From contig SHZF01000032.1 of NCBI GenBank assembly GCA_009692425.1, forward strand, positions 1-48,620: a DNA stretch of 48,620 nt. The letters are read 5' to 3'. Below, in pieces: positions 16,112 to 17,844 of the stretch. The position numbers were made by a program, and so were the translations under genes. Below the pieces are notes generated by a model. It worked only from the letters and a program-made list of their open reading frames with translations, searched no databases and was not told the origin of the DNA. Source of the DNA: Myxococcales bacterium. Its GTDB lineage: Bacteria; Myxococcota_A; UBA9042. Position 1 is the stretch's first letter; each line of letters opens with the position of its first letter.

Positions 16112-16251
16112 CCTAACCTCCGCCGCCTGTGGCGCGCTCCCAGAGAACGGCGGCAGCGTGTGGGGGATTCAAGTCCGCGTGCGCCGACCCCGACCGACTG
16201 CTACACTGCCCGCCCCGCAGCAACCTCCGCTGCCGGGGCCGGAGCCCTCCC
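16112..16251. other. Divergent promoter region between two lipoprotein genes
   Basis: 140 bases between genes transcribed in opposite directions. GGAG at 16241-16244 serves as ribosome site for the rightward gene. No clear operator is seen. Confidence 0.35.
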
Positions 16252-17418
16252 ATGTCCATCCTCATCTTGGGCGCGACGTCGATTGCCGCGTGCCTGCTCG
16301 CCTCCTGTGACTCGCCCGCGCCCGCAACGCCGGCCGGGACCGGCTCGAACGACACCGCCGCCGGCACGATCGGCGACACCGCCGCCAGCCCGGACGCCGC
16401 AGCGGACGCGCCGACGGCAAAGGATGCGACGGCTCTGAACGACGCCAGCGCAACGCCGGACACGCCCGCACCGCAAGACGCCACCCCACCCAAGGACACG
16501 CCTGCGCCGCTCGCCGACGCGTCGCCGGCCGACACCACGCCCTCGCCCGACACGGCGCTGCCACCGGACGCCGCGCCCGCCCCGGACACGGGGCCCGCCC
16601 TGGACACCCCGCCCGCTGCCGATGCCGCGCCGGCTGGCTGCAAACCTGGCGAGTTCAAGCCCTTGCAGTCCGACACATGCCAGTCAGCCACGTGCCCGAA
16701 CCTCAAGCAGTCCGCGCACTCCCTCGTGCAGGACGCCGCGAAGCAGTTCGCCGAGGTTCCCCCGTGCAAGGCCGACGCCGAGTGCGTCCCGGTGTCGCAG
16801 GATACGGCGTGTTCCGGCGAGTGCCCGGCCATCGTAAATGCAGCGAGCAAGGGCGAATTCGCCAAGGCCGTCAAACAAGCGGATGCGTTCTGCAAGCTCC
16901 ACGGCGTGGCGGCGAAGTGTGGCTTTCCCATTCCGTCGTGCATCGCGCCGACGCCCGCGTGCGTGGCCGGCAAGTGCGTGTACACGAAGCCGCCCACGTC
17001 GAAGTGCGGTGACGTCCAGCCGGCCAATACCGTATGCGAAGGCACGGTCTGGGCGTGCAAGCCTGGGCACTTCAAGGGCTACGGCGGTGGCGAGTGCCAC
17101 GAAGCAACGTGCGAGAACCTCGCCAAGGCCAATAACGAAGCGATCGGTGCCGCCATCGCCAAGGCCCAGGTCTGCAAGGTGGGCGCCGACGACGAGTGCA
17201 TCCACATCGCGACGGCGACGGCGTGCCAGGGCACCTGCGGGGCCGCGGTCAACGCCGGGATGCAAAACGACGTCCTCAAGGTCGTCGGCTGGGTCGACGA
17301 CAACCTGTGCAAGGCGTTCGGCTATGCGGCCAAGTGCGGGTACTCCGGGCCGAAGTGCACGGCGCCGAAGCCAGGGTGCGCGGCGGGGAAGTGCGAGTAC
17401 AGTGGGGTGGCGCCGTAG
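16252..17418 (+). CDS. Lipoprotein with Asp/Pro linker and duplicated Cys-rich domain
   Basis: 388 residues from ATG 16252, with GGAG 7 nt upstream. The signal peptide ends L-L-A-S-C (Cys19). Residues 20-129 are a low-complexity linker of Ala, Pro, Asp and Thr, probably an extended spacer. Two homologous domains follow (about 130-245 and 265-388). Each has A-T-C-x-N-L-(K/A), a helix, E-C-(V/I) plus T-A-C-x-G-x-C, another helix, F-(C/G)-(K/Y)-x-x-x-x-A-A-K-C-G, and ends A-(G/A)-K-C-x-Y. The repeats have diverged but keep their cysteines, so each is probably a disulfide-locked helical module. I do not recognise the family. The stop codon lies in a 23-bp tandem repeat. Confidence 0.8.
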   Translation: MSILILGATSIAACLLASCDSPAPATPAGTGSNDTAAGTIGDTAASPDAAADAPTAKDATALNDASATPDTPAPQDATPPKDTPAPLADASPADTTPSPDTALPPDAAPAPDTGPALDTPPAADAAPAGCKPGEFKPLQSDTCQSATCPNLKQSAHSLVQDAAKQFAEVPPCKADAECVPVSQDTACSGECPAIVNAASKGEFAKAVKQADAFCKLHGVAAKCGFPIPSCIAPTPACVAGKCVYTKPPTSKCGDVQPANTVCEGTVWACKPGHFKGYGGGECHEATCENLAKANNEAIGAAIAKAQVCKVGADDECIHIATATACQGTCGAAVNAGMQNDVLKVVGWVDDNLCKAFGYAAKCGYSGPKCTAPKPGCAAGKCEYSGVAP

Positions 17419-17468
17419 CGCGCCGCGAGCCGATGCCGTAGCGCGCCGCGAGCCGATGCCGTAGCGCG
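17415..17468 (+). repeat. 23-bp tandem repeat (2.3 copies)
   Basis: A 23-base unit starting GTAGCGCGCCGCGAGCC occurs exactly at 17415-17437 and 17438-17460, and its first 8 bases recur at 17461-17468. The first copy contains the TAG stop of the lipoprotein gene. The array fills most of the gap before the ArsC-like gene. Confidence 0.9.
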
Positions 17469-17500: not shown

Positions 17501-17507
17501 GAGGAGG
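17501..17507 (+). promoter_or_regulatory. Strong ribosome binding site that fixes the selenoprotein start
   Basis: GAGGAGG stands 7 nt before ATG 17515. It is one of the best Shine-Dalgarno sequences in the window. It supports translation from an ATG whose frame meets TGA after ten codons, which would be pointless unless that TGA is read through. Confidence 0.8.
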
Positions 17508-17514
17508 CCTCACC

Positions 17515-17844
17515 ATGCCCACAACCCTGTACTGGAAGCCCGGTTGAACCGGCTGCGTCAACGCGCGGGGGTTCCTCGCGCACCGCGGCGACGACATCGA
17601 ACTGCGCAACGTCATCAAGCAACCGCTCACGGCGGACGAACTGCGGGCGCTTGCGGCGCGCGTCGGCGACGTGAAGCTCTTGGTTGCGCCCAAACGCCGG
17701 GCTGAAGCCGAAGGGCTCGACGGCGAGCCGCTCATCCAGTGGCTGGCCGCCGACGCGATGCGGCTGCGCAAGCCATTGATCGACGTCGGCAGCCACGTCG
17801 TGCTCGGCTTTGACGCCAAGGCCAAGGCCGCCTTGGGCGGCTGA
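17515..17844 (+). CDS. Probable ArsC/Spx-family selenoprotein (TGA = Sec11)
   Basis: Reading from ATG 17515, the frame meets TGA at 17545-17547 and then stays open for 98 more codons to TGA 17842-17844, giving 109 residues. Translated with selenocysteine, the start is L-Y-W-K-P-G-U-T-G-C, placing U11 and C14 as a U-x-x-C redox pair. ArsC, Spx and YffB proteins have their catalytic Cys at this place, after a first beta strand. The rest also fits: a helix V-N-A-R-G-F-L, then R-N-V-I-K-Q-P-L-T-A-D-E-L, K-L-L-V and a terminal R-K-P-L-I-D-V-G-S-H-V-V-L-G-F-D, the family's conserved end. A hairpin with a GU-containing loop sits 15 nt after the UGA. Likely a thiol/selenol reductase; substrate unknown. 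The alternative is a Cys-to-stop mutation, but the intact downstream frame argues against it. Confidence 0.82.
17545..17581 (+). promoter_or_regulatory. Selenocysteine UGA and bacterial SECIS-like hairpin
   Basis: The UGA is at 17545-17547. At 17563-17581 GCGCGGGG pairs with CCUCGCGC (8 bp, one G-U) around a GUU loop. The loop G lies 24 nt after the A of the UGA. In bacterial SECIS elements a short stem-loop starts just after the UGA and shows an unpaired G, often GU, at its tip at about this distance, where SelB binds. Pairing was found by eye; no folding energy was computed. Confidence 0.65.

Follow-up and report, generated by a model that had tools for sequence, protein, structure and literature searches.

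The window analysed here, a stretch of 48,620 nucleotides from a Myxococcales bacterium, carries on its forward strand a reading frame that is preceded by a GAGGAGG ribosome-binding site and interrupted at codon 11 by a TGA, its sole in-frame interruption (Table 1). The frame had been described in this form in the first-pass annotation, and both sequence and translation confirm the description. The read-through product begins MPTTLYWKPG-U-TGC. Downstream of the internal TGA the G+C content at the three codon positions is 0.77, 0.45 and 0.89, a composition of the coding type, while the length of the open frame itself counts little as evidence because the G+C content is 70%. The open frame upstream of this gene had been called a duplicated-domain lipoprotein; the lipoprotein-like start and the repeated Cys-rich halves are indeed seen, and a Pfam search with this frame returned no match. 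Between the two genes lie two head-to-tail copies of a sequence of about 23 bases, TAGCGCGCCGCGAGCCGATGCCG, followed by the start of a third; the upstream gene terminates at the TAG within the first copy.

Table 1. Features of the locus (window positions) and further probable selenoprotein genes of the same genome (G000, contig positions)
Feature	Position	Strand	Evidence or remark
Upstream open frame	16129-17418	+	Lipoprotein-like start
TAGCGCGCCGCGAGCCGATGCCG repeats	17416-17465		Two copies and start of a third
Ribosome-binding site GAGGAGG	17501-17507	+	7-nt spacer to ATG 17515; read from sequence
Predicted selenoprotein gene, ArsC/Spx-like thioredoxin-fold, U11-T-G-C14	17515-17844	+	109 codons plus stop (TGA 17842-17844); sequence matches, family alignment, AlphaFold2 model, structure matches
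UGA at codon 11, predicted to encode the catalytic selenocysteine	17545-17547	+	Cys/TGA aligned in homologues; Sec machinery in genome
Cys14 codon, putative resolving cysteine of UxxC	17554-17556	+	Present in 90% or more of the aligned family members
Candidate bSECIS hairpin GCGCGGGG / GUU / CCUCGCGC	17563-17581	+	Folding, comparison with relatives, bSECIS criteria of PMC13188914
Peroxiredoxin-like, HTFG-U-TLEC	C21:61479-61841 (L075)		Hairpin after UGA
Peroxiredoxin-like, QTSG-U-TAEG	C20:13065-13406 (L076)		Hairpin after UGA
Thioredoxin-like UxxC, ASW-U-GFC	C78:31682-31951 (L080)		Hairpin after UGA

With the TGA read as Cys, the protein matches the Pfam Glutaredoxin family (PF00462) at 25.8 bits, above the gathering score of 22.9. 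The best single sequence model is TIGR01616 of NCBIfam, which stands for NifO-like nitrogenase-associated proteins and covers residues 5-106 (1.3e-10), yet the 41.3 bits obtained lie under its cut-off of 109. The scores are likewise below the cut-offs of NF041106, the model of ArsC-related UxxC selenoproteins (22.7 bits vs. a curated cut-off of 85), of TIGR00014, the arsenate reductase ArsC (13.6 vs. 106 bits), and of the Spx models (27.3 vs. 123 bits). Sequence matches to Spx chains in the PDB were found at about 5e-5, with their Cys aligned to the TGA. The AlphaFold2 model, in which the TGA was again treated as Cys, has a mean pLDDT of 93.9, and its best structure matches in the PDB are ArsC-related or ArsC-family proteins, Spx and YffB (E 5e-8 to 1e-5), with query TM-scores of about 0.7-0.85 at sequence identities of about 14-23%. 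According to this model the fold is that of the ArsC/Spx-like thioredoxin-fold superfamily, and the family proposed in the first-pass annotation is thus supported by Pfam, TIGR01616, the Spx chains and the matches of the modelled fold. Among plasmid records the best match is a 33% identical “ArsC/Spx/MgsR family protein” of Methylocella tundrae and nothing else was found there, and viral structures gave distant matches only.

Relatives of the protein are widespread in the phylum. An alignment-based phylum search gave matches in 185 of 379 genomes, whereas a scan of named genomes found five relatives only, the hits including Myxococcales metagenome-assembled genomes. Of the loci that were read closely, the TGA falls exactly on the catalytic Cys column in the window gene and in 11 relatives, such as LYWKST-U-TTCR in L043 and LYLKST-U-TSCR in L048, and 13 aligned relatives carry Cys on this column; the suggestion that the TGA replaces the catalytic Cys of ArsC/Spx-type proteins is therefore borne out by the homologues. 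One TGA relative with an uncertain start codon (L055) was read and left out of the alignment. Of 27 genomes compared, every one of the 13 with the TGA form carries selA, as do 8 of the 14 with the Cys form (Fisher P = 0.016). Three Sec/Cys changes are required on a small tree, a count that is not firm given the low support and the very long branch of the window protein. This protein is the most divergent member of the family, with at most 38% identity to the others and an end branch of 3.21 changes per column, and it lacks R15 and R86, which are both near-invariant. A different arrangement is seen in L003 (G010:C82:7496-7840), where Cys occupies the catalytic column and a TGA replaces a conserved Trp four codons before it. 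The same genome holds a second, intact copy of this gene on contig C81, and L003 is possibly a broken copy.

We then compared the sequence 3' of the UGA with published bSECIS criteria, namely a loop of 3-9 nt, a stem of 4-16 bp, a distance of 16-37 nt from the UGA, a G at loop position 1 or 2 and an MFE of at most -7.5 kcal/mol (PMC13188914). The window hairpin has 8 bp, a distance of 23 nt between the UGA and its apical loop, and an energy of about -15 kcal/mol; the same bases can also fold into 7 bp with the loop GGUUC, 22 nt after the UGA, and either fold lies within all of these limits. A hairpin with a stem of at least 6 bp and a GU-containing loop of 3-6 nt is found in 12 of 12 TGA genes (6-8 bp, 17-23 nt from the UGA) and in none of 14 Cys genes, L003 being joined to the latter. 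For this contrast P = 1e-7 with related rows counted, and the hairpin P values are approximate because the GU-loop rule was partly guided by the same sequences and the rows are related. Among the seven distinct stems the base pairs differ at each stem position, and the arms of each gene are 96% paired with one another compared to 43% when one arm is taken from another gene. In dinucleotide shuffles the stability of the window hairpin is not unusual (z = -0.4, range -0.4 to -0.6), which is expected because of the G+C content. Since the shuffles were not significant, we used synonymous recoding with the codon usage of the window instead, which holds the protein fixed; here 0.7% of trials produced a GU-loop stem at least as long (P = 0.007). 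The Rfam model SECIS_1 (RF00031) had no match in the genome and also matched none of the controls, and an Rfam scan of the region gave nothing relevant.

These results bear on the possibility that the gene is a Cys-type ArsC-like copy in decay, its TGA being a plain nonsense mutation. The window copy is indeed highly divergent and some near-invariant residues are missing, as decay would have it, but a chance hit would not be expected to fall on the very codon that is also TGA in 11 other genes. Moreover, the hairpin surpasses what synonymous codons provide, and the 98 codons after the TGA have been left open with a GC3 of 0.89. We consider a nonsense mutation very improbable.

If the UGA is decoded as selenocysteine, the genome should encode the machinery to do so. 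The genome assembly (4.94 Mb in 137 contigs, 96% complete, 1.9% contaminated) contains selA (456.8 bits) and a selB that scores over its cut-off, a full-length frame of 806 codons with GTPase and SelB winged-helix domains, among them SelB-wing, the SECIS-binding domain. It also contains two selD genes (366.7 and 226.3 bits; C50:34849-35790, L034, and C84:922-1839, L035) and two distinct tRNA-Sec genes (C68:6545-6637, L022, and C7:4466-4558, L023), which score 74.1 and 71.7 bits with the covariance model and are both called by ARAGORN with the anticodon TCA. The second selD encodes a fusion with a pyridine-nucleotide-disulphide oxidoreductase domain. With selA, selB, selC and selD all found, the objection that the pathway might be absent falls away. 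The sel genes lie on contigs other than that of the selenoprotein gene, the assembly being fragmented; the tetranucleotide composition of their contig stretches correlates with that of the window at 0.91-0.99, and mis-binning of all sel contigs is therefore unlikely.

A search of this genome for AhpC-TSA proteins revealed three genes, each broken by one in-frame TGA that lies at the redox site (Table 1). In the C20 gene the UGA is followed by a 9-bp hairpin, GGGUUGCGG/GUU/CCGCGACCU, with a loop identical to that of the window gene, while the loop of the C21 hairpin has no GU and fits the GU-loop rule less well. From their sequences, the three are probable further selenoprotein genes, and real use of selenocysteine in the organism is supported because three more redox genes carry TGA at the catalytic Cys. 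The SelW-like Rdx family had no match in the genome.

Could the TGA simply be a sequencing or assembly error for TGC or TGT? The assembly is of metagenome type, in which such errors may be suspected, but the same TGA occurs in 11 genes from other assemblies, and a SECIS hairpin and the Sec machinery are both present. Because the same TGA recurs in many separate assemblies, a base-call error is very unlikely, and we give it next to no weight. We therefore have little doubt that the TGA at 17545-17547 is the selenocysteine codon of a predicted 109-residue selenoprotein of the ArsC/Spx-like superfamily.

For the function of this selenoprotein we propose the following sequence of events. SelB together with Sec-tRNA(Sec) would bind the hairpin just 3' of the UGA, and selenocysteine would be inserted at position 11. 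The Sec11 selenolate could then attack an oxidised substrate, Cys14 would resolve the product by forming a selenenylsulfide within the protein, and regeneration would fall to glutathione or thioredoxin. On the strength of the UxxC motif and the fold, from which these redox steps are deduced, we favour with some reserve a Sec-dependent oxidoreductase of the thiol/disulfide type, which is also the most economical mechanism. Arsenate use or Spx-like regulation appears less likely.

In the family alignment Lys86 is found where the relatives have a near-invariant Arg, before Pro-87 in “..RRP..”, and the residue after Gly98, an Arg in some relatives, is Phe. We take these two positions to be two of the three anion-binding arginines of E. 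coli R773 ArsC, and since Lys86 and the Phe occupy these arsenate-site positions, classical arsenate reduction becomes less likely. A Sec-containing arsenate reductase proper, with ArsC function, is also difficult to reconcile with the low TIGR00014 score of the window protein. On the other hand, the fold is that of the ArsC family, the TGA relatives L067 and L007 reach 83-88 bits on TIGR00014, near its cut-off, and arsenate-reductase-like UxxS selenoproteins of the TIGR00014 type are known, which belong to the ArsC family and have Sec at the catalytic Cys, as here (PMC13188914). In comparison to these, the window protein is UxxC and has part of the arginine triad replaced. Overall, we regard the arsenate reductase as unlikely. 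A further alternative is an Spx-like redox switch that uses Sec and acts by binding to RNA polymerase. Spx structures are among the best fold and sequence matches and C/UxxC lies at the Spx redox site, but the Spx models score far under their cut-offs, and such a switch seems distinctly unlikely to us. The preferred reading remains a thiol/disulfide-type oxidoreductase.

The first-pass annotation mentioned Sec-containing ArsC-like proteins predicted in marine metagenomes and supposed that one in a Myxococcota-like genome beside a duplicated-domain lipoprotein would be new. Ocean metagenomes contain arsenate-reductase-like selenoproteins of the UxxS and UxxC types, the GOS “Arsenate reductase 2” being UxxC (PMC2398784), and an “Arsenate reductase-like protein” is listed in current selenoprotein catalogues (PMC9312934, PMC13188914). 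The class is therefore not new, since UxxC selenoproteins have been described in this superfamily before. The proteins of NF041106 resemble the window protein in fold family, in having Sec first in UxxC and in being small single domains. However, the scanned relatives, like the window protein, stay far below the NF041106 cut-off (23.7-31.5 bits, or below reporting), and for this reason the window protein and its relatives, as judged from their sequences, form a separate, unmodelled branch that is seen in the window's own phylum. With Spx, YffB (PA3664) and the Cys-containing ArsC-family reductases the window protein shares the fold and the position of the redox residue, but it has Sec instead of Cys and the identity is low. 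We suggest tentatively that this may be a distinct Myxococcota-wide branch whose role differs from both arsenate reduction and Spx-type regulation, and with repeated exchange of Sec and Cys.

A search of full-text literature gave no paper on Myxococcota selenoproteins by title, and selenoproteins in this phylum are little described. Gene finders would split the window gene at its internal TGA, and because standard gene calling truncates such genes the annotation of this branch is probably incomplete throughout the phylum. The aligned TGA relatives are enough for a new annotation model. Moreover, the family offers matched natural Sec and Cys variants, which would allow a direct test of what selenocysteine adds.
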